This document shows, in pieces, positions 11,287-21,578 of a stretch of 21,578 nucleotides of DNA. The notes beneath the pieces were generated by a model. It did not search any database, had not been told where the DNA came from, and saw only the letters and a list, made by a program, of their open reading frames with translations. Position numbers and translations under genes: made by a program. Source of the DNA: Anaerolineales bacterium UBA7227 (lineage in GTDB: Bacteria > Chloroflexota > Anaerolineae > Anaerolineales > Villigracilaceae); the NCBI GenBank assembly GCA_002473085.1, contig DKTP01000076.1:1-21578 (forward strand), given 5' to 3'. Every line of letters begins with the position of its first letter. The stretch's first letter is position 1.

Positions 11287-13890
11287 ATGCCCGCCGATAC
11301 TTCGTTCCTTAAGGACGCCTGTCAGATCACCGGCGCGGACTGGGCTGCGCTGGCCGACCGCGACGACGGAGACTGGCGGCTGCGCGCTTCGCACGGACTC
11401 AGCCGCCCGGCCCGCGACCTGCTGCAAGAGCGTCTCGCCCGACCGGTCGCGGACGCGTGGCTGTGCGGCGCGGTCAACGCGGGCCGGCCGCGGACGCGCG
11501 CGGCGGGGGAAGTCCCCGCGCTCGAAGATTCGAGCCTCCATGTCTATCCCATCGCGAATTCGTTCTCCGTCCTGATGGCAGCGACGCGGAAGTCGGATGA
11601 ACGCTTCCGGGACGTATGGAAGATGGTCGCCGCGATGCGCGCCCCCTCGGACGACGAAGCGGGAGTCTCGCTCCTGCAATCGGAATTGCTCCTGCCCAAC
11701 CTGCAATCCGAGGCGCCCTACGACGTGACGCGCCTGCTGGCGCGCGTCCTGCGCATGTTCGTGACGCGCGCCCGCGCGCAGGGAGGCTGGCTCGCCATCC
11801 GCCGCGCCGAGGCGCTCGAAGTGCAGGCGCAGTGGAACAGTCCGCAATCGGCGGACGCGGTCATGCCCATTGACGAGAATCCCCTGTGGCGGCGCGTCAA
11901 CAAAACTTTGAAACCCCTGTTCGCGAGCGCGGGCCAGGCCGATTGGGAACACGGCCCGCGCGAGGCGGCGCGCGGCTCGAAGGCCTTTGCCTGCTTCCCG
12001 CTCATCATCGGCCAACGCATGATCGGCGCGGTCGCGCTCTGGCGGCAAAAACCCTTCACCGAGGAACAGTCGCTCGCGCTCGACAATCTCTCCGCGCAGG
12101 TCGCGCCCGTCATCGAGATCGTCATCACCTTCGCTTCGATGGCCGACCATCTGCGCCGCCTGGCGGTGTTGAACGACGTGACGCTCACCGTGGCCTCGGC
12201 GCAAAACCTCGACCAGATCACCCGCCGCGTCTTCGGGCTGCTGGAGCGCGTCTTCCGCACCGACCGCGTGGCGCTCTACCTCCTCTCGGTGGACGGGAGC
12301 ATGGTGCGCGAGTACCACAACCGCGAGGGGAAGATTCTCCAGGCGGGGAGCGAGTCGAAGGAACACCGCCTCGCGCCGCTCATCAAAAGCGGGAAGACGC
12401 TGCGCCAGGCGGACGCGTCCGCGGCGGGATTCGCCCCCGCCCAACCCGACTCGGCCTCCTTTCTCTTCATGCCGCTTCGTCACCGCGGGCGGACGATCGG
12501 CGCGCTCACCCTCGAAAGTCCTCGCGCCGACGCGTTTACCATCTACGACGAACATCTGCTCGTCGTCATCGCCTCGCATCTCGCGGGCCTGGTGGAGTAC
12601 AGCCGCCTGCGCGAAGAAGCGGAGGGCCGCGCCCGCAACCTCGGTCTCATCCACGAGGTGGTGCAGGAAGTCGTCGGTCTCACCGACCTGCGCGAGATCG
12701 CCCAGATCACCTCCGACCTGCTCACCCAATATTTCTCCTACGAACTCGCCCTCGTCCTCCTTTTGGACTCGGGGCAGAATCCAGCCGTGCGCGGCTTCGG
12801 CGGAAAGAGCGCGCCGCACGCCGAACGCGCCTTTGCCAAAAACCCCGCCGCGTTGACGGACGGCATCTTCGGGCGCGTCCTGCGCTCCGGCCGGAGCGTC
12901 CTCGTCAACGACGCCGCCGCGGAATCCGACTATCACCCGGCGCCGGGCAGCGCGGCCGGCTCGTTGATGTGCGTGGCCCTCCGTGACGGCGACCAGACGC
13001 TCGGTCTCATCCACGTGGAGCGGCGCGACCGCAACGCCTTCACCCAGAACGACCTGCTCGACCTCGAGTCCCTGGCCGGCATCCTCGCCAGCGTGGTCTC
13101 CAGCGCAGACCAGTACCAGCGCCTGCAAGAATCCATCCGCCAGTTGCGCGCCGCGCAGGACGAGTTGAAGAACCGCATCGAAGCCCAGCGCTCCGCCGAG
13201 AGCCGTCTCATCCAGGCCGCCAAACTGGCCGCCGTCGGCGAGATGGCCGCGGGCGTGGCGCACGAACTGAACAATCCCCTCACCACCGTGACAGGCTTCG
13301 CGGAGTTGACGCTCGAGGAACTCCCGCCCGACGCGGCCTCGCGTCCCGACCTCGAACTGGTGCTGCGCGAGGCGCGCCGCGCCCGCGACGTGGTCCGCCG
13401 CCTGCTCGATTTCGCCCGCCAGACCGAGTCCACGCGCGTCAGCGCCGACCTGAACGAAACGCTGCAAGATGTTGTCGAATTGACGCGTCACCTCATGCAC
13501 ACCAGCGGCGTCGTTTTCACGTCATCCCTTGCGCCGAACCTGCCCTGGGTCTCCGTGGATCGGAATCAGATGAAGCAGGTCTTCCTCAATCTCTTCCACA
13601 ACGCTTTGCAGGCCATGCCGACCGGCGGCGAGTTGAAATTGCAAACCAGCCGCGCCTCCCGCGACGGCCGCGAGTGGGTGGTCGCCTCGGTGCGCGATAC
13701 CGGTCAGGGCATTTTGCCCGAACACCGCGAACGCGTCTTCGAGCCGTTCTTCACCACCAAATCGAACCAGGCCGGCACCGGGCTGGGACTCTCCGTCACC
13801 TACGGCATCGTCACCGATCACGGCGGCGTCATCGAGGTCGAGAGCCAGCCCGGCGAAGGCTCCACATTCACAGTATGGCTGCCAATCTGA
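11287..13890 (+). CDS. Multi-GAF sensor histidine kinase
   Basis: 867 residues, no membrane segment. A GAF-like, partly degenerate N-terminal region (about 1-115) is followed by three clearer GAF domains (about 140-285, 295-440 and 455-605), a coiled coil (about 605-645) and a kinase core. The core has H box GVAHELNNP (H659), N box LFHNALQAM (N772), G1 DTGQG (804-808) and G2 GTGLGLS (830-836), the NtrB-like HELNNPL type. It is a cytoplasmic kinase that could integrate several small-molecule or redox signals. There is no receiver of its own. The next gene starts within its stop codon (TGATG), so the pair is translationally coupled. The probable promoter is leaderless. Confidence 0.9.
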   Translation: MPADTSFLKDACQITGADWAALADRDDGDWRLRASHGLSRPARDLLQERLARPVADAWLCGAVNAGRPRTRAAGEVPALEDSSLHVYPIANSFSVLMAATRKSDERFRDVWKMVAAMRAPSDDEAGVSLLQSELLLPNLQSEAPYDVTRLLARVLRMFVTRARAQGGWLAIRRAEALEVQAQWNSPQSADAVMPIDENPLWRRVNKTLKPLFASAGQADWEHGPREAARGSKAFACFPLIIGQRMIGAVALWRQKPFTEEQSLALDNLSAQVAPVIEIVITFASMADHLRRLAVLNDVTLTVASAQNLDQITRRVFGLLERVFRTDRVALYLLSVDGSMVREYHNREGKILQAGSESKEHRLAPLIKSGKTLRQADASAAGFAPAQPDSASFLFMPLRHRGRTIGALTLESPRADAFTIYDEHLLVVIASHLAGLVEYSRLREEAEGRARNLGLIHEVVQEVVGLTDLREIAQITSDLLTQYFSYELALVLLLDSGQNPAVRGFGGKSAPHAERAFAKNPAALTDGIFGRVLRSGRSVLVNDAAAESDYHPAPGSAAGSLMCVALRDGDQTLGLIHVERRDRNAFTQNDLLDLESLAGILASVVSSADQYQRLQESIRQLRAAQDELKNRIEAQRSAESRLIQAAKLAAVGEMAAGVAHELNNPLTTVTGFAELTLEELPPDAASRPDLELVLREARRARDVVRRLLDFARQTESTRVSADLNETLQDVVELTRHLMHTSGVVFTSSLAPNLPWVSVDRNQMKQVFLNLFHNALQAMPTGGELKLQTSRASRDGREWVVASVRDTGQGILPEHRERVFEPFFTTKSNQAGTGLGLSVTYGIVTDHGGVIEVESQPGEGSTFTVWLPI

Positions 13891-15470
13891 TGGACAGACT
13901 TTCCATCCTCGTACTCGACGACGAACCGGGCATCACGCTTCTCTGCAAACGCATCCTGGAGCGCGACGGCTTCGACGTGACGGCCTTCACCGAGCCGCGC
14001 AAAGCCATGGACGAGTTGACGCGCCGCCGCTTCGACCTCCTGCTGGTGGACATCCGCATGCCCGAAGTGGACGGCTTCGACGTCATCTCGCACGCCCAGC
14101 GCGTCCAGCCCGACCTCGCCGTGCTGGTGATGACCGGCTTCGGCACCGTCGAGACCGCCATCCGCGCCCTCCGCTCGGGCGTGGACGGCCTGCTGCTCAA
14201 ACCCTTCCAGCAGGGCGCCGAATTGATGAAGGCCGTCCGCCAGGCGCTGACCGACAAGCAAAACAAACGCGACGCGGCCCGCATCCAAACCCTGCGCCCG
14301 CTCTTCTCGATCACCGAGGCGATGTTCAGCGAGACCGAGCCGCGCCGCCTCCTGGATCTTATCCTGACCGCCGTCTGCGGACATTTGGACTGCCCGCGCG
14401 CGGCCTACTTCCAACTCGACGCCCCGGGCGAGACGCTGAACCTGCTGGCCGGGCGCGGCGACCCTCCCTTCGGCGCCGCGGACGCGTCCGTGCTGGGCGC
14501 GCAGGCCGCGCGGCTCGAGGCCCCGGCCCTGGTCAACGCCGAGGGTCCCGGCGACCCGGCCGCGCAGTCCGAGATGAAGCGGGGCGGGCTGGCCTCCATC
14601 CTGTTCGTACCGGTGACGCGTCCGGGCGGGCGGAGTCTGCTTTTCGCGGGACGCGCGTCGGGCCAGTCCTCCTTCCGCGAGGCCGACGTGGAAATGTTCC
14701 AGATCCTGGCGCGGCAGGCGGTGGCCGCGATGGAGAACGCGCGGCTCTACGCCGAACTGCGCGACTATGTGCGCCGCGTGGAGGAATCGCAGCAGGCGCT
14801 GTTGCAGGCCGAGAAGATGGCCGCCGCCGGGCGACTCACCGCCTCCATCGCGCACGAGATCAACAACCCCTTGCAGGGCGTCCAGAATTGCATCCACCTG
14901 GCCGGGCGCGCAGACCTGCCCGCGGAGAAACGCGCCGAATACTTTGAACTGGCGCGCGCCGAACTGGACCGCCTGCAGACCACCGTTAAACGCATGTTAG
15001 ACTTTTACCGTCCGAACTCGGTCTCGCCGGAGGACGTGGACCTGGCCGAACTGCTTTCGCATGTGCTGGTCTTGATGGGGAAGCAGTTGGACGAGCGGGG
15101 GATTCGCGTCCACATGGAATTGCCGGGGCGGCTTCCGCGCGTGAAGGCGGTCGGCAGCCAGATCCAGCAGGTGTTCATCAACCTGATCCTGAACGCGTAC
15201 GACGCCATGCCCGGCGGCGGCGAGCTGCAGGTCCGCGCCCGCGCCGCGAAGGGTGAAGTGGAGATCCTGTTCGAGGACAGCGGGCCCGGCGTCCCGTTGA
15301 GCGAGAGCCGAAACATCTTCGAGCCGTTCGTCAGTTCCAAAGTGGGCGGCACGGGGCTGGGTCTTACGGTAAGTTACAATATCGTCACCGCGCACGGCGG
15401 CAGGCTGGAAGCGACGCAGGGGCGCGGCAACGGCGCTTGTTTTCGCGTGACGCTTCCCATGGAGAGGTGA
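13890..15470 (+). CDS. Hybrid histidine kinase with N-terminal receiver (REC-GAF-HisKA-HATPase)
   Basis: 526 residues from ATG 13890, whose A is the last base of the previous stop. ATG 13875 would add five residues. The order is a receiver domain (about 4-120) with acidic D10/D11, phosphoacceptor D54 (VDIRMPEVDGF), T82 and K104. Next is a GAF-like region (about 140-285), a coiled coil (about 285-312), the H box SIAHEINNP (H322), N box NLILNAYDAM (N435), G1 DSGPG (463-467) and G2 GGTGLGL (486-492). A receiver placed before the kinase suggests that its activity is set by phosphorylation, possibly from the upstream kinase encoded in the same operon. It is followed after one base by the response regulator gene. 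Confidence 0.9.
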   Translation: MDRLSILVLDDEPGITLLCKRILERDGFDVTAFTEPRKAMDELTRRRFDLLLVDIRMPEVDGFDVISHAQRVQPDLAVLVMTGFGTVETAIRALRSGVDGLLLKPFQQGAELMKAVRQALTDKQNKRDAARIQTLRPLFSITEAMFSETEPRRLLDLILTAVCGHLDCPRAAYFQLDAPGETLNLLAGRGDPPFGAADASVLGAQAARLEAPALVNAEGPGDPAAQSEMKRGGLASILFVPVTRPGGRSLLFAGRASGQSSFREADVEMFQILARQAVAAMENARLYAELRDYVRRVEESQQALLQAEKMAAAGRLTASIAHEINNPLQGVQNCIHLAGRADLPAEKRAEYFELARAELDRLQTTVKRMLDFYRPNSVSPEDVDLAELLSHVLVLMGKQLDERGIRVHMELPGRLPRVKAVGSQIQQVFINLILNAYDAMPGGGELQVRARAAKGEVEILFEDSGPGVPLSESRNIFEPFVSSKVGGTGLGLTVSYNIVTAHGGRLEATQGRGNGACFRVTLPMER

Positions 15471-15471
15471 T

Positions 15472-16206
15472 ATGAAATCTGTGATCCTGGTCGTGGATGA
15501 CGAGCCGGTGGCGCGCCAGTCGCTTTCGGATATTTTGCGGCTGGAAGGTTTCAGCGTGAACGCGGTCCCCAACGGACAGGCGGCGGTGGAATACGTCCGC
15601 ACTCATTCGGTGGATTTGATGGTGGTGGACCTGCGCATGCCCGGCATGGACGGGCTGGAGGTGATCCAGGTGGTCAACCAGGTCTCGCCGGATACCGAGG
15701 TGATCCTGCTGACCGCGCACGGTTCGATGGAGTCCGCGGTCCAGGCGCTGCGACTGCGGATTCACGACTACCTTTCAAAGCCGGCGGCGCCGCATCAGAT
15801 TCTCGCCAGCGTGAAGAAGGGACTGGCGCGGCGGGAGGCGCGCTTGAAGGAACGCGGCACCCCCGGACTGGCGGCGGAGGAGGCGGTCTCCGAGTTTCGC
15901 TTCAGAGACGGCGCGGTCGCCGATCTCTCGCGGCGGATGATCCGCAAGGGGAGGAAGGAGGCGCATCTCACCCCCGCCGAGGGACGCCTGCTACGCATCC
16001 TGTTGGAAAATCCCGGCCGCGTGTTTTCTCACCGCGACCTGGTGCTGCTGGTGCAGGGCTACGACACTTCCCCGCAGGAGGCGCCGGAAGTGCTTCGTCC
16101 GCTGGTCAGCCGCCTGCGCCACAAGTTGGAGGATTTCCCCGACCTGATGAAGCGCATCTCCAGCGTGCGCGGCACGGGTTATGTGTACGAGGAAAACGGG
16201 AGTTAA
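15472..16206 (+). CDS. Response regulator with OmpR-type winged-helix domain
   Basis: 244 residues. The receiver (about 3-120) has D9/D10, phosphoacceptor D53 (VVDLRMPGMDGL), LTAHGSMESAV and YLSKPA (lysine in place). The receiver sequence is of the NtrC style (LTAHGS..SAV.AL). The output domain (about 145-244) is a Trans_reg_C winged helix, LTPAEGRLLRILLENPGRVFSHRDLVLLVQGY followed by LRPLVSRLRHKLE and RISSVRGTGYVYE, so it binds DNA rather than acting through sigma-54. GGAG (15461-15464) lies 7 nt before the ATG, which is one base after the stop of the hybrid kinase. It is the likely output of the three-gene cascade. No target operator could be identified. Its stop overlaps the convergent transporter stop. 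Confidence 0.92.
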   Translation: MKSVILVVDDEPVARQSLSDILRLEGFSVNAVPNGQAAVEYVRTHSVDLMVVDLRMPGMDGLEVIQVVNQVSPDTEVILLTAHGSMESAVQALRLRIHDYLSKPAAPHQILASVKKGLARREARLKERGTPGLAAEEAVSEFRFRDGAVADLSRRMIRKGRKEAHLTPAEGRLLRILLENPGRVFSHRDLVLLVQGYDTSPQEAPEVLRPLVSRLRHKLEDFPDLMKRISSVRGTGYVYEENGS

Positions 16207-17150
16207 TCGTGCGGCCCCCAGGGGGTATCGGGCGGGATATTGGGCGGGCGGATCCAGTTCAACCAGCCGCTTTTGGGGTTTTTTCTCGGCGGCGGCGCGT
16301 CCTTGCCGGTCAACAACAAGCTGGCGACAAGGCCGCCCGCGCCCAGCCATTGGACGAGAGTCAGGTTCTCGCCCAGCAGCCAGTGACTGAATCCGATCGC
16401 CACCAGCAGTTCGCTCAGGCCGAGCAGGGCAGTCTGCATCCCGCCGATGTGTTTGACGCCGAGGAAGAGCGTCAGCCGAGCGAGGAAGGTGACCAGCGTC
16501 AGACCGACGACCGGCCACCAGGAGACGTTTCCCGAAGGAAGGCGCGGGTCGAGAATCAGGAAGGCGGGCAGCGTCACCGCGCTCATGGCGAGGAGCGTGT
16601 AGAGCGTCACCGTCGGCGCGGGGACGTCGTATAGCACGCGTTGGTTGATCGGCAGGTGAAAGGCGTAAAGCGCGGAGCCGACGAGCATCATTACGACGCC
16701 GAGCGGGTCCACGTCGCCGCGAAAGCCCCCGGTAAGCAGGATCACCGCCAGCATGGCCAGCAGGGTGCGGAAGACGGTCATCCGGCTGAGGGGCGCGCGG
16801 TCCAGGATGATCGAAAAGGCCAGAAAGATGGGATAGAGGGAATAGAGCATCTGCCCGATGGAGGCGGGCAGTCTCGCCAGCGACATGTAGTAGAAGATCG
16901 AGCCGACGCCGTTGATGAAGCCGGCCAGCGTACAGCCCATCAAGCCGACGGGATAAATGAAGAGGTATTGGCGTTTGAAGAGCGCGACGAGGGTGAAGAG
17001 CAACAGGGCGGCGAACGCCGTCCGCAGGGCCACAACGGCCAGTGGGGAGAATCCGAACAGGATGGCCTGCCGGCCCAGCACGGGAGCCAGTCCGAGCAGA
17101 AAGGCCGAGGCAAGCGCGGCCTGAATCCCTTTGGAACGCTCCGTTTTCAT
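16203..17150 (-). CDS. EamA/DMT-family transporter
   Basis: 315 residues with about ten hydrophobic segments arranged as two EamA repeats (about 10-140 and 148-282). The pattern is that of the drug/metabolite transporter superfamily, with the repeat starts GIQAALASAFLLGLAPVLGRQAI and LGVVMMLVGSALYAFHLPINQ and short charged loops. A proline-rich cytoplasmic tail (about 283-315) follows the last helix. It is probably an exporter of a small metabolite. It lies 13 bp after the PLP enzyme-receiver fusion on the same strand, which makes export of an amino acid related to that enzyme conceivable but unproven. No clear ribosome-binding site precedes the ATG. Its stop codon shares the palindrome TTAA with the stop of the response regulator. 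Confidence 0.85.
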   Translation of the reverse strand: MKTERSKGIQAALASAFLLGLAPVLGRQAILFGFSPLAVVALRTAFAALLLFTLVALFKRQYLFIYPVGLMGCTLAGFINGVGSIFYYMSLARLPASIGQMLYSLYPIFLAFSIILDRAPLSRMTVFRTLLAMLAVILLTGGFRGDVDPLGVVMMLVGSALYAFHLPINQRVLYDVPAPTVTLYTLLAMSAVTLPAFLILDPRLPSGNVSWWPVVGLTLVTFLARLTLFLGVKHIGGMQTALLGLSELLVAIGFSHWLLGENLTLVQWLGAGGLVASLLLTGKDAPPPRKNPKSGWLNWIRPPNIPPDTPWGPHD

Positions 17151-17163
17151 CGCATCGTTGCTT

Positions 17164-18828
17164 TCAGCGTAACAGAGACCGCACCTCTTCCAGGAACTCG
17201 TCGTTGAGGAAATCTCCTTTTTGCATCAATGCCTGGATCTGTCCCGCCAGTTTGCTTTTTTCGTCGGGGGTCAATTCCTTGGCCGAGGCCACGATGACGG
17301 GAATTTCGGCGGTTTCGGTTTGGGCTTTCAGGCGGTCGAGGACCGCGAACCCGTCCATTTCGGGCATCATCAGGTCGAGGATGACGAGGTCGGGCAATTC
17401 CTTTTGGATGAGTTCCAGCCCCGACCTGCCGTCCGCGGCTTCGAGAATCTCGAACTCTCCCTGCGACTGGAGGATGCGGCGGATCAACCGCCGGGACTCG
17501 GGACTGTCGTCCACGATGGCGATCCGCTTGAAGCGGTCGGGCGCGACGTTCGTCAGCGCGGCCAGCAAACCTTCCTGCGGTTTGCCCTCCGCCCGCGAAG
17601 GGAGCGCCACGTTGCGCGACCAGTTGTCGCCCAGGATGTAGGGTTCGGCCGGCATGGTGTGACCGGTGCAGTTGACCACAATCACGTCGGTGGGTTTGAC
17701 GATGCCGGCGCGGATGAGTTTGAACAACCCCGCGAAGGCCACGGCCGCGGCGGGTTCGGCGGAGATGCCCTCCATTTTCGCCAGGACATGCATGGCGCGG
17801 TAGGTTTCCTCGTCGGTGGCGCTTTCGAAGACTCCCCCGGTTTCGTCCACGCGCTGGCGCAGCAGGGTGTAGGCGCGGCCGGGGTCGCCGGTGGCGAGCG
17901 TCTCGATGTGCGTGCGCGGCGTGGCGACCGGTTCAGCCTCCTCCAATCCCTTTTTCCAGGATCGGACCATCGGCGCGCAGCCGTCAGCCTGGATGGGCGC
18001 GAGCGCGGGCATGCGGTCGGTCCAACCCATCTGCTTCAATTCGCGGAAGCCTTTGTAGACGCCGATGGGTCCCATCCCGCCGCTGACGGCCTGGATGTAC
18101 CAGTCCGGTGCGCGCCAGCGCGGGCCGTTTCCGTTCGAGGGAGGGCCGAGGCGGGCGGTGAGTTGCTCGCTGATCTCAAAGGCGATGGTCTTCATGGCTT
18201 CGATGGACGTGACGGCGCGCGCCCCGCGGTCGAGGTGGAGGTTGCGCTGACGGGCGAACTCGGCCGCCAGTTGTTTGGCCTGGTCGTAGGAGGCGGTCAC
18301 TTTGACGACCTGGCTCCCGTAGAGCGCGATCTCGTGCATTTTGACGGCCGGGACGAGGCTGGTGACGAACGCCCATAGTTTGATTCCCGCGCGGGCCGCG
18401 TACGCCGAATAAGCGATGGCGACGTTCCCGGTGGAGGCGGCCACCATCTCGGTGATGCCGGCCTCTTTGAGCGCCGCGATCGTGACGGCGGCCTGGCGGT
18501 CCTTGAAGGAACCCGTCGGGCCCTGGCGCTCGTCCTTGATGAAGAGGTTGGGAGTCCCCAGCATCATGCCGAGGTTGACGGCCTGGATCAGGGGAGCGCC
18601 TCCCTCGCCGAGGCTGAGGGAGGGATTGGGGTTGCGAATCGGCAGGAGTTCGCGGTATCGCCACAGGTCGAAGGGACGGGAGGCGAGGAGCCGGGGCAGG
18701 GTTTCCGCGACGGAGGCATAGTCGTATTCCGCCTCGGTCCACTGGCTGTTACAGCGCGGGCAATGGACGGATGCGGGCGAAAACGGCGCGGCAAGGCCGC
18801 AATCAATGCATTTGACTGAAAAAGACAT
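17164..18828 (-). CDS. Threonine-synthase-like PLP enzyme fused to a C-terminal receiver domain
   Basis: 554 residues. It begins with a small zinc ribbon (C7-x2-C10 and C23-x2-C26), as in many threonine synthases. The fold-type II PLP domain (about 45-405) shows LGEGGAPLIQA (73-83), the Schiff-base lysine in GPTGSFKDRQA (K109), the ASTGN loop (131-135), the phosphate loop SGGMG (249-253) and NCTGHTMP (386-393). After a linker (about 405-430), residues 434-554 are a complete receiver with D440/D441, phosphoacceptor D485 (VILDLMMPEMDGF), S515 and a QKG lysine (K537). The receiver is in the same frame without interruption, so it is a real fusion, not a frameshift. The enzyme could be threonine synthase or a relative such as a cysteate-synthase-type enzyme. 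It is flanked by a hybrid kinase (18-bp gap) and a transporter, all co-directional. Confidence 0.9.
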   Translation of the reverse strand: MSFSVKCIDCGLAAPFSPASVHCPRCNSQWTEAEYDYASVAETLPRLLASRPFDLWRYRELLPIRNPNPSLSLGEGGAPLIQAVNLGMMLGTPNLFIKDERQGPTGSFKDRQAAVTIAALKEAGITEMVAASTGNVAIAYSAYAARAGIKLWAFVTSLVPAVKMHEIALYGSQVVKVTASYDQAKQLAAEFARQRNLHLDRGARAVTSIEAMKTIAFEISEQLTARLGPPSNGNGPRWRAPDWYIQAVSGGMGPIGVYKGFRELKQMGWTDRMPALAPIQADGCAPMVRSWKKGLEEAEPVATPRTHIETLATGDPGRAYTLLRQRVDETGGVFESATDEETYRAMHVLAKMEGISAEPAAAVAFAGLFKLIRAGIVKPTDVIVVNCTGHTMPAEPYILGDNWSRNVALPSRAEGKPQEGLLAALTNVAPDRFKRIAIVDDSPESRRLIRRILQSQGEFEILEAADGRSGLELIQKELPDLVILDLMMPEMDGFAVLDRLKAQTETAEIPVIVASAKELTPDEKSKLAGQIQALMQKGDFLNDEFLEEVRSLLR

Positions 18829-18846: not shown

Positions 18847-21578
18847 TTAAGTGTGGACGCGCTGGAGGGCGCGCTCGAGGCTGGCGAGGAGCTGCTGTTC
18901 GGTGAGGGCGCTTTTTTGGATCAGGCGTTGGCCGAATTCGCGCAGGACTTTTTCCTGTTCGGGCGTCAGGTCGCCTCCGCTGACCGCCAGGATGGGGATG
19001 TCGCGAAGCCGTTCGTCGCCGCGTATTTTTTCGATGAGGGTGAACCCGTCCAGGTCGGGCATGAACAGGTCAACGATCACCGCGTTGGGGATGTTGTTCT
19101 GGAGGGCCTTCCAGCCCTCTTCGCCGCCGCGCGCCAGGGTGGGGCGGTATTGGCTGTGACGGGAAAGCATGTGGTCGAGTAGGCGCAGGTCGTCGGGGTT
19201 GTCGTCCACGATGAGAATCTCGCGGAGGCTGCCGTCCATGTTCAGGCGGTCGAGGGCGTCGAGCAGGTCGTCTTCGATGATGGGTTTGACGATGTAATCG
19301 GCCGCGCCGAGGCTGAATCCTTTTTCACGCTCCTCGACGATGCTGCAAACGATCACGGGGAAATCGCGGGTCTCGTCGTTGGATTTAAGGTCGTTGAGCA
19401 CGCGCCAGCCGTCGTAGCCGGGCATCATGATGTCGAGCGTGACGGCGAAGGGTTTCAACTGTTTAACGCGTTCCACCGCCCGCGACGGGTCGCTGAGCGG
19501 GACGACCTGGTATCCCTGCGGCTGAAGGAAGCGCTCGTACAGGCTGATGACCTGCGGATCGTCGTCAATCGCCAGGATGACGCGCTTGTTCGTCGGCGCG
19601 TCGGTTTCGGCAGGACCTCGGAAGGCGGGCAGGGTGAAATAGAAGACGCTGCCTTCGCCGGGGGCGCTGTCCACGCCCATGCGTCCGCCGTGCATCTGGA
19701 TGAGGTGGTTGGAAATGGAGAGGCCGAGTCCCGAGCCGCCGCTCTTGCGCGTAGGGGAAGCGTCCACCTGCGAGAAGGGCTGGAAGAGTTTTTTCTGGTC
19801 CGCGGCAGAGATGCCGGGGCCGGTGTCCGTCACGCGGACGGTGATCTCCGGATGGCGGTTGGATCCCTGGCTCACGCTGGCGCTCACGAGGATGGAGCCT
19901 TCGTCGGTGAACTTGGAGGCGTTGGAGAGCAGGTTGAGCAATACCTGGCGGACGCGCATCGCGTCGGCGCGAACGGTGGGCAGGTCCGCGGGCAGGTCGC
20001 GGCGCAGGGTGATGGGCCTGTCTTTGACCAGTCCGCTGGCGGTGGACATGACGCTGACGATGAGGTCGGAGAGGTTGACTTCGTCGAAGGTCAGTTCCAT
20101 CTTCCCGGCTTCGATGCGGGAGAGGTCGAGGATGTCGTTGATCAGGCCGAGCAGGTGCTGTCCCGAGTTGTGGATGGCGAGCAGGTCCTGCTGCTGGAGG
20201 TCGGTGGTGGGGCCGTCTATGCCTTTCAGGATGACGCGCGAGAAGCCAATGATGGAGTTGAGCGGGGTACGCAGTTCGTGGCTCATGTTGGCGAGGAACT
20301 GGCTCTTGAGCCGGTCGGCCTCGCGCATTTCCTTGACGGCCTGCATGGAGAGTTCGTAGGAGCGGGCGTTGTCAATGGCGATGGCGACCTGGTCGGCGAG
20401 GGTTTGCAGCACGGCGATGTCGTCGTCGCGGAAGGCGCCGGCCTGCTCTGATTGGATGTCGAGCGCGCCGATGGTGCGCGAGCCGACGCGCAGGGGCAGC
20501 GCGGCTTCGGCGCGCGTGCGCGGCAGGAGCGGGTGCGGGCGGTGAACCTGGCTGGCCGCGGTGTCGTTGACGATCACCGCGCGGCCTTTTTCGGTCACTT
20601 CGCCGACGATGGAGCGCGAGCCGATCGGCAGGCTGTGTTTCTGGCGCAGCATTTCGGCCCCGGCCTCGCCGGTGGCCGCCTGGAGGACGGCGTTGAAGCC
20701 CGTCTCCTCGGCGACAAAGATGCCGGCGTGGTAGTAGCCGAAGCGTTCGCGCACCAGGTTGACGGTCCGTGAGAAGAGCGTGGGCATGTCGAGGGTGGAG
20801 GTCACCAGTTGGGAGATCTCGGCTGTGGCGGAGAGGTATTCGTTGCGGCGGCGGAGGGCTTCCTCGTCCTGTTTGCGGGCGGTGATGTCGCGCGCCACCC
20901 AGAAGACCTGGTCGTCCGTCAGTTTGGAGACGTTGGCCTCGAACCAGTATGTTTTTTCCTCGATGGCGAGCGAATATTCTATCCGTTCGAGCTGCCCGCT
21001 TTCCAGGGCGCGCTGGATGGTTTGAAGGAAGGGCTGGTGCATGGATTCGGGCAGCACTTCGCTGATCTTCTTTCCGAGCATATCCTCTGGCGGAAGGAAC
21101 AGGCGCGACGGACTGGTGGGCGCGATGCGGATGTAGCGGCCCTCGCGGTCATAGATGATGATCACGTCGGTCATGGCAGAGAAGAGGGCGCGCAGTTCGC
21201 CTTCCGAGCGGGCGAGGGCCTCCTGCGACTGGCGCGTTTCTTCGAACAGGCGCGCGTTTTGGATGGCGATGGCGGCCTGCGCCGAAAGGGCGATGAGCAG
21301 GTCGCGGTCGTGTTCGTCGAAGGCGTTCTCTTCGACATAGGATTGCGTCGCCATGACGCCGATCGCCTGCTCGCCCAGGAGCAGCGGCACGCCCAGCCAG
21401 CAGGCGGGCGGCTGCCCCACCGCTTCGATGCCCAATTGACGCATGACCTCCGCTACGTTGTTGGGTATGAGGAGCGGCCTGCGGGTGCGCAGAAGGTAGC
21501 CGCTCAACCCCTTATCGGCGGGGATGGTGAGGATGTCCCGGTCCACGACCGATTCCGAGACGTTCAAAGGAAATGTGA
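18847..21578 (-). CDS. Hybrid histidine kinase GAF-PAS-GAF-HisKA-HATPase-REC-REC (5' end outside window)
   Basis: The frame stays open through the window edge. The TTG at 21567 is merely the first possible start in view, and the visible N-terminus lies in the middle of a GAF domain, so the gene is 5'-partial. Numbering from that TTG gives a partial GAF (to about 108), a PAS domain (about 122-232), a GAF (about 250-405), H box MSHELRTPLN (H430), N box NLLSNASKF (N549), DTGPG (581-585) and GGSGLGL (610-616). Two receivers follow, with phosphoacceptors D712 (TLDIMMPGYDGW) and D833 (IVDLFMPDLDGF). It is a cytoplasmic kinase in its visible part. A histidine phosphotransfer domain is not seen, so the two receivers may be internal or output to separate partners. 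The next gene encodes the PLP enzyme-receiver fusion. Confidence 0.9.
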   Translation of the reverse strand, partial: TFPLNVSESVVDRDILTIPADKGLSGYLLRTRRPLLIPNNVAEVMRQLGIEAVGQPPACWLGVPLLLGEQAIGVMATQSYVEENAFDEHDRDLLIALSAQAAIAIQNARLFEETRQSQEALARSEGELRALFSAMTDVIIIYDREGRYIRIAPTSPSRLFLPPEDMLGKKISEVLPESMHQPFLQTIQRALESGQLERIEYSLAIEEKTYWFEANVSKLTDDQVFWVARDITARKQDEEALRRRNEYLSATAEISQLVTSTLDMPTLFSRTVNLVRERFGYYHAGIFVAEETGFNAVLQAATGEAGAEMLRQKHSLPIGSRSIVGEVTEKGRAVIVNDTAASQVHRPHPLLPRTRAEAALPLRVGSRTIGALDIQSEQAGAFRDDDIAVLQTLADQVAIAIDNARSYELSMQAVKEMREADRLKSQFLANMSHELRTPLNSIIGFSRVILKGIDGPTTDLQQQDLLAIHNSGQHLLGLINDILDLSRIEAGKMELTFDEVNLSDLIVSVMSTASGLVKDRPITLRRDLPADLPTVRADAMRVRQVLLNLLSNASKFTDEGSILVSASVSQGSNRHPEITVRVTDTGPGISAADQKKLFQPFSQVDASPTRKSGGSGLGLSISNHLIQMHGGRMGVDSAPGEGSVFYFTLPAFRGPAETDAPTNKRVILAIDDDPQVISLYERFLQPQGYQVVPLSDPSRAVERVKQLKPFAVTLDIMMPGYDGWRVLNDLKSNDETRDFPVIVCSIVEEREKGFSLGAADYIVKPIIEDDLLDALDRLNMDGSLREILIVDDNPDDLRLLDHMLSRHSQYRPTLARGGEEGWKALQNNIPNAVIVDLFMPDLDGFTLIEKIRGDERLRDIPILAVSGGDLTPEQEKVLREFGQRLIQKSALTEQQLLASLERALQRVHT

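Follow-up and report, generated by a model that had tools for sequence, protein, structure and literature searches.

A receiver domain fused to a threonine-synthase-like PLP enzyme in Chloroflexota, encoded between a hybrid histidine kinase and an EamA-family transporter

Introduction

The usual outputs of response regulators are transcription and second messengers. PMC5847659 treats the attachment of a receiver domain (REC) to a metabolic enzyme as a recognised route to environmental control of that enzyme, and the archaeal fusions described there have a family- or genus-level spread; its class (vii), response regulators with an enzymatic output, includes KaiC-REC and a BcsA-like glycosyltransferase-REC (PMC5847659). 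Here we describe a protein, PALP-REC, encoded in a 21,578-nucleotide stretch of DNA from Anaerolineales bacterium UBA7227 (Chloroflexota; contig DKTP01000076.1), hereafter the window, in which a REC is likewise joined to an enzyme. In contrast to those class (vii) proteins, the enzyme is a pyridoxal phosphate (PLP) enzyme of the PALP family and the REC is C-terminal, and its spread (many families of one class plus the genus Herpetosiphon) is wider than that of the archaeal fusions given there. The combination of a REC with a metabolic enzyme is already known; what appears from sequence comparison to be new is the PALP enzyme, the wide spread within one phylum and the recurrent kinase and transporter context. 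No paper on a fusion of PALP or threonine synthase with a receiver was found among the top-ranked results of full-text searches of open-licence papers, and an earlier mention in surveys of response-regulator output domains is possible.

On the enzyme side, PALP-REC shares with threonine synthases (TIGR00260, PRK08197; structures 2zsj, 1uim, 2d1f, 6cgq and 1e5x) the fold, as judged from a VIA-align comparison of the predicted model over residues 1-410 (the enzyme part), the Schiff-base lysine in SFKD, the STGN/D loop and a T-G or T-x-H near the C-terminus, at 27-34% identity to the bacterial enzymes. Unlike the solved threonine synthases, it has a receiver, lacks their NSxNxxR segment and reads SGGxGP where they read GNAGN or GNLGN. 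The matched 430-residue chain of a cysteate synthase (CapA2, 9k3c) covers only the enzyme part of PALP-REC. Receiver-free relatives in the cyanobacterial phylum, three complete sequences (L201, L202 and L203; a fourth, L200, is partial), have 46-51% identity in one comparison and 48-53% in another, and the same zinc ribbon and SGGMGP loop. Unlike PALP-REC they lack a receiver, and no open reading frame (ORF) near the cyanobacterial relatives matches the window kinase. In L202 and L203, GR replaces GH at residues 389-390.

The explanation that we favour, with a probability of roughly one half, is that PALP-REC is a response regulator with a PLP-enzyme output that is phospho-controlled by the adjacent kinase and coupled to the adjacent EamA transporter.

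Results

PALP-REC is a 554-aa ORF (17164..18828) on the minus strand, as are the features below unless stated otherwise, with its ATG at 18828 and its stop at 17164-17166. The first-pass annotation of this DNA had left the strand unstated; the plus-strand frame over the same interval is broken by stops. The protein belongs to a conserved family, and both Pfam domains are above their gathering cut-offs: residues 72-389 (17662..18615) match PALP (PF00291), a fold-type II PLP enzyme domain, with 211.4 bits against a cut-off of 35, and residues 436-527 match Response_reg (PF00072) with 72.9 bits against 30.2. An intact metabolic-type enzyme domain and, at residues 435-553 (17170..17526), an intact REC follow each other in one uninterrupted frame, as the first-pass annotation had described; K109, D440/D441, D485, S515 and K537 are all where it had placed them, and the SGGMG that it named is at 249-253. 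Between the two domains lies a linker (residues 390-434; 17527..17661) with a conserved EGLLAAL (419-425), in which G420 is kept in 91/96 and L425 in 90/96 members and the predicted local confidence (pLDDT) is below 50 over residues 390-419.

Conservation was scored in 96 distinct members that reached more than 350 bits in BLAST against the window protein (four identical sequences of 100 were dropped); this set was chosen by score, so badly decayed copies could not enter, and its identity floor is about 50%. Invariant in all 96 are the four cysteines of the zinc ribbon (C7, C10, C23 and C26; 18751..18810), the predicted Schiff-base lysine K109 in GSFKDR (18502..18504), D110, the S132-T133-G134-N135 loop that, with the lysine, marks the fold-type II family, and S249, G250 and G253-P254 in and next to the predicted PLP-phosphate loop SGGMG (residues 249-253; 18070..18084). 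G389-H390, D441 and the predicted phospho-acceptor aspartate D485 (17374..17376) are likewise invariant. S/T515 and K537-G538 occur in 95 members, the remaining one having a gap, and K537 (17218..17220) stands in a KG and not a KP motif; position 440 is D in 56 members and E in 40. Decay of either half, which the first-pass annotation had thought absent, is ruled out by the invariance of the catalytic and phospho-acceptor residues, and since these residues are kept down to about 50% identity, the pattern suggests that both active sites are under strong purifying selection.

The PALP half also differs at defined positions from 18 receiver-free homologues of the window genome and its relatives. 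Residues 200-214 (DRGARAVTSIEAMKT; 18187..18231) align to the NSxNxxRxEGQKT segment of threonine synthases; D200 is found in 96/97 PALP-RECs, G202 in 97/97 and M212 in 95/97, E210, K213 and T214 are retained, and Arg208 occurs in 0/97. At position 202 the receiver-free homologues have T or H (18/18), and at 208 they have R or T (17/18) where PALP-RECs have S, A or G (92/97, mostly S or A). Position 249 is S in all 96 PALP-REC members and G in 18/18 receiver-free homologues.

The fusion is genuine. Both PF00291 and PF00072 are present in all 120 listed matches of the window protein (itself included) and in all 120 listed matches of the Herpetosiphon giganteus member, and some genomes assembled as one contig, G013, G265 and G400 among them, contain full-length PALP-RECs. 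Together these findings rule out an assembly error or a chance fusion. Among the matches listed, no full-length Chloroflexota relative lacks the receiver, contrary to what the first-pass annotation had named as grounds for doubt, a receiver encoded separately in relatives and an assembly error here.

Within Chloroflexota the family is widespread. Of the nearest 61 genomes, 49 have a full-length match with at least 54% identity to the window protein, and there is also a second group at about 48-52% identity. In a sample of the class, 146/396 genomes match at E<=1e-80, and among the matches listed the alignments reach at least residue 524, that is, they include the receiver; for four of the 146 (G108, G161, G188 and G362) the best scores are weak and no coordinates are listed, and these may be partial or receiver-free. 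E-value cut-offs alone do not require the receiver, as receiver-free cyanobacterial proteins scored 1e-106 to 1e-118. A sample of the phylum gave 34/301 matching genomes, seven of them outside the class: G452 and six from one genus, identified as Herpetosiphon because L121 (G473) has exactly the sequence of P0121, a protein that NCBI assigns to Herpetosiphon giganteus. Among 1314 matching plasmid records, none (0/1314) covers 80% of the query. One subgroup of about 700-800 aa (L124, L126, L127 and others) has two receivers, PALP-REC-REC in the three members scanned, followed by a single-domain REC gene.

We assigned the sampled phyla outside Chloroflexota as Acidobacteria, Planctomycetes, Bacillota and Cyanobacteria. 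Three of them gave 0/199, 0/199 and 0/249 genomes at E<=1e-70, an absence that is provisional because no known positive was available. In the cyanobacterial phylum 4/194 genomes match; L201, L202 and L203 are receiver-free (398-420 aa) and L200 is broken at a contig end. No other phylum sampled gave receiver-free relatives of this PALP subfamily. Among 12 genomes from other phyla, six match at E<=1e-30 over the enzyme part only, with 31-37% identity, and six have no match. The first-pass annotation had asked whether the architecture is confined to a lineage; PALP-REC was found only in Chloroflexota among the sampled genomes, its absence elsewhere being provisional.

The 97 PALP domains taken from PALP-RECs fall into one clade, with weak support (UFboot 69), apart from the 18 receiver-free homologues; the same clade plus the four cyanobacterial proteins has a UFboot of 79, and an earlier FastTree run with 98 PALP-RECs gave a support of 0.714. 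L022 (494 aa, at a contig end) was excluded from both trees, and L176 was included in the FastTree run and excluded from the UFboot tree. The receivers of 95 PALP-RECs likewise group as a single clade when compared with the 115 receivers of adjacent kinases (FastTree support 0.832, midpoint-rooted), and in 53/53 loci with both, the PALP-REC receiver is closer to the terminal REC of its own kinase than to the internal one. No REC was detected with the profile used in 21/82 adjacent kinases. With PALP domains and receivers each forming one clade, the trees, at modest supports, fit a single event that joined a PALP enzyme to a kinase receiver of the terminal type.

The gene directly before PALP-REC encodes a hybrid histidine kinase (18847..21576; its 5' end lies beyond the window) with the order GAF-PAS-GAF-HisKA-HATPase-REC-REC, which ends 18 bp before the PALP-REC start; its terminal REC (approximately 18862..19221) is of the same receiver type as that of PALP-REC, as the comparison of terminal and internal RECs in 53/53 loci shows. 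The gene that follows starts 13 bp past the PALP-REC stop and encodes an EamA-family transporter (16203..17150; PF00892, 87.8 bits against a cut-off of 28.2, in two stretches that correspond to repeats). From their spacing and shared strand, the three genes look like an operon. Upstream sequence was sufficient at 97 of the 98 distinct loci, and at 81 of these a same-strand histidine kinase lies within 400 bp upstream; L010, L127 and L146 were scored as misses despite a nearby kinase ORF (the frame is split, the ORFs overlap by more than 300 bp or the gap exceeds 400 bp). Of the 64 loci whose sequence extends 2.6 kb downstream, 54 have histidine kinase, REC, EamA or PALP genes in that stretch, EamA being present in 27 of the 54.

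Three layouts recur. The first is that of the window, kinase, PALP-REC and EamA, sometimes with a REC-kinase gene in between; the second is kinase, PALP-REC and a single REC, followed at some loci by a ThrC-like gene (L116: PRK08197, 561 bits); and the third is PALP-REC-REC and then a single REC. Two receivers are built into 55 of the 82 adjacent kinases. In L011 (4679-5467) and L010 (3763-4548) the gene immediately before the hybrid kinase codes for a ParA/AAA_31-type ATPase of about 260 aa, and ORFs of that size occupy this place at many other loci. Two kinase-free second copies (L160:5994-7658 and L194:5095-6903) share a setting of an Mrp/ApbC-like P-loop protein, a peptide deformylase and a ZIP transporter, and one of them is also near a xanthine-dehydrogenase-like gene. 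No enzyme substrate was found from the gene neighbourhood, the other orphan copies and the cyanobacterial genes having no common neighbour among the ten proteins scanned for each of these two sets.

PALP-REC and the EamA transporter are present and absent together. Across the 61 nearest genomes, counting as PALP-REC-positive only full-length matches with at least 54% identity, 48 have both, 11 have neither and two are discordant. The two genes are at most 1 kb apart in 47 of the 48 genomes; in the other (G031) both lie at contig ends. In one discordant genome (G017), PALP-REC is at a contig end and no EamA was found, and in the other (G052) EamA is joined to a truncated PALP, with a full-length 52% match on another contig. 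In this second genome (L176:5397-6974) an ORF runs from PALP residues 1-228 into EamA, the arrangement that a deletion, or a misassembly, of the operon's central part would give. The 11 genomes with neither gene span six families and include one (G036) that is only 65% complete. Unless PALP-REC and the transporter share a function, their joint absence from several families would be difficult to account for.

Discussion

We propose that D485 receives phosphate, directly or via the kinase's own receivers, from the GAF/PAS hybrid sensor kinase whose gene ends 18 bp upstream, and that phosphorylation of D485 changes the activity, or the assembly, of the threonine-synthase-like domain through the short conserved linker (segment 419-425). 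The PALP half would act on an amino-acid-like substrate, which is probably something other than O-phosphohomoserine, and the product or the substrate of the enzyme would cross the membrane through the EamA transporter encoded next to it. In favour of this are the kept catalytic and phospho-acceptor residues, the kinase upstream, the co-occurrence with EamA and the two clades, which fit one fusion; the layout variants, PALP-REC-REC with a single REC and kinase, PALP-REC, REC, stay within the same scheme.

Several observations weigh against this explanation. Sixteen of the 97 loci lack a kinase inside the limits used, and two second PALP-REC copies adjoin unrelated genes. The Fisher p of 3.4e-10 for the co-occurrence with EamA overstates independence, the 61 genomes being related, and the transporter profiles do not indicate the EamA cargo (TIGR00950, 47.2 bits against a cut-off of 230.2). 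The predicted model leaves the domain interface unfixed, with a pLDDT below 50 in the linker and the receiver C-terminus and a pTM of 0.68. The PALP-REC receiver resembles the terminal REC of the kinase, that is, a histidine-kinase-type receiver, and it lacks an aromatic coupling residue: position 534, which we take to be the aromatic-switch position of beta5 by counting three residues back from the lysine as in CheY, is L, I or V in 93/96 members, F in one, M in one and a gap in one. The same position is L, I or V in 49/61 terminal RECs of the kinases and Tyr or Phe in 53/54 internal ones. Published work links the S/T-Y/F coupling residue of beta5 to allosteric terminal receivers and finds it variable in an intermediary one (PMC9981736). 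A textbook Thr-Tyr switch is thus unlikely in the PALP-REC receiver, to judge from its residues, and a receiver that lacks the aromatic switch may serve to hand on or hold phosphate and not to switch the enzyme. Control could run via another face, via dimerisation or in the opposite direction, with PALP as a sensor.

That opposite direction is the alternative that survives best, and we regard it as possible, though well behind. PALP would then be a PLP-dependent amino-acid sensor, whose ligand alters the phosphate traffic of the attached receiver so that information flows from metabolite to phosphorelay. PLP-domain sensors such as MocR and GabR provide a model, and a sensor would likewise keep K109, STGN and the glycine loop. 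The type of the receiver and its missing aromatic switch suit such a role, as do the further signalling genes (REC-kinase or single REC) that adjoin many loci and the presence of a separate ThrC in the genome. MocR proteins have their PLP domain fused to a DNA-binding domain; by contrast, Pfam finds no DNA-binding domain in the window protein, and the co-occurrence with the transporter fits an enzyme with a flow of substrate at least equally well.

A genuine, or second, threonine synthase that is set by phosphorylation through altered contacts to the substrate phosphate appears quite unlikely. The family resemblance set out above favours it, and the Herpetosiphon member passes the TIGR00260 cut-off (170.6 bits against 167.1), with a type-B protein (L116) just below it at 166.8. 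The window protein, however, misses three relevant curated cut-offs: 154.5 bits for TIGR00260, 251.8 against 303 for PRK08197 and 113.3 against 324.9 for the cysteate synthase profile TIGR03844, the last of which also speaks against an identity as cysteate synthase. The segment N-S-[VL]-N-x-x-R-x-E-G-Q-K-T is common to the five solved threonine synthases, and in the Thermus enzyme its N, S and R presumably bind the phosphate of the substrate; the NSxNxxR part is absent from the window protein. The genome's own ThrC keeps N-T-G-Y-N-P and also lacks the Arg, and loss of this one residue therefore does not settle the matter. Residues 202 and 208 differ between PALP-RECs and receiver-free homologues.

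A separate, receiver-free ThrC, for which the first-pass annotation had advised looking, is encoded on another contig of the window genome and passes the TIGR00260 cut-off with 177.3 bits. No ThrB homoserine kinase was found above the cut-off in the whole window genome (G000; best 37.4 bits against 168.25, with 11/14 control genomes passing), which weakens a supply of O-phosphohomoserine by that route. On these comparisons the name threonine synthase is not supported for the window protein, and O-phosphohomoserine is probably not its substrate. Of the first-pass annotation, the fusion and the intact halves stand; a threonine-biosynthetic label is not supported. Many PALP-RECs are listed in databases as 'threonine synthase', a name that is probably incorrect for them or says too little.

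That the receiver is a phosphate sink or relay and PALP a docking platform, with an activity unchanged by phosphorylation, would agree with the receiver type, the missing aromatic switch and the two receivers carried by 55/82 adjacent kinases, and is improbable given the invariance of the predicted PLP residues in 96 members, which would be unexpected of a mere platform.

If PALP-REC is a response regulator with a PLP-enzyme output, signals may act on metabolism in these Chloroflexota without the detour of gene expression. We offer as speculation, and consider unlikely, the broader proposal of a two-component module without a transcriptional output at its core, in which a kinase, a phospho-gated PLP enzyme and a dedicated transporter would make and export, or take up and consume, an amino-acid-derived molecule that is possibly a signal. 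Were it true, the PALP subfamily with D200, G202 and SGGxGP would catalyse a reaction not yet described. As the family has matches in 146/396 sampled genomes of the class, reaches Herpetosiphon and is tied to a transporter, phospho-control could be tested in a cultured host. Herpetosiphon is cultivable and is not known to be a pathogen.

Further regulatory genes adjoin the operon in the window. On the plus strand at 11287-16206 lie divergent genes for a GAF histidine kinase, a REC-GAF kinase and an OmpR-type regulator, and a set similar in ORF size and kinase match is found beside the operon in relatives that include L012, L013, L018, L021, L166 and L168.
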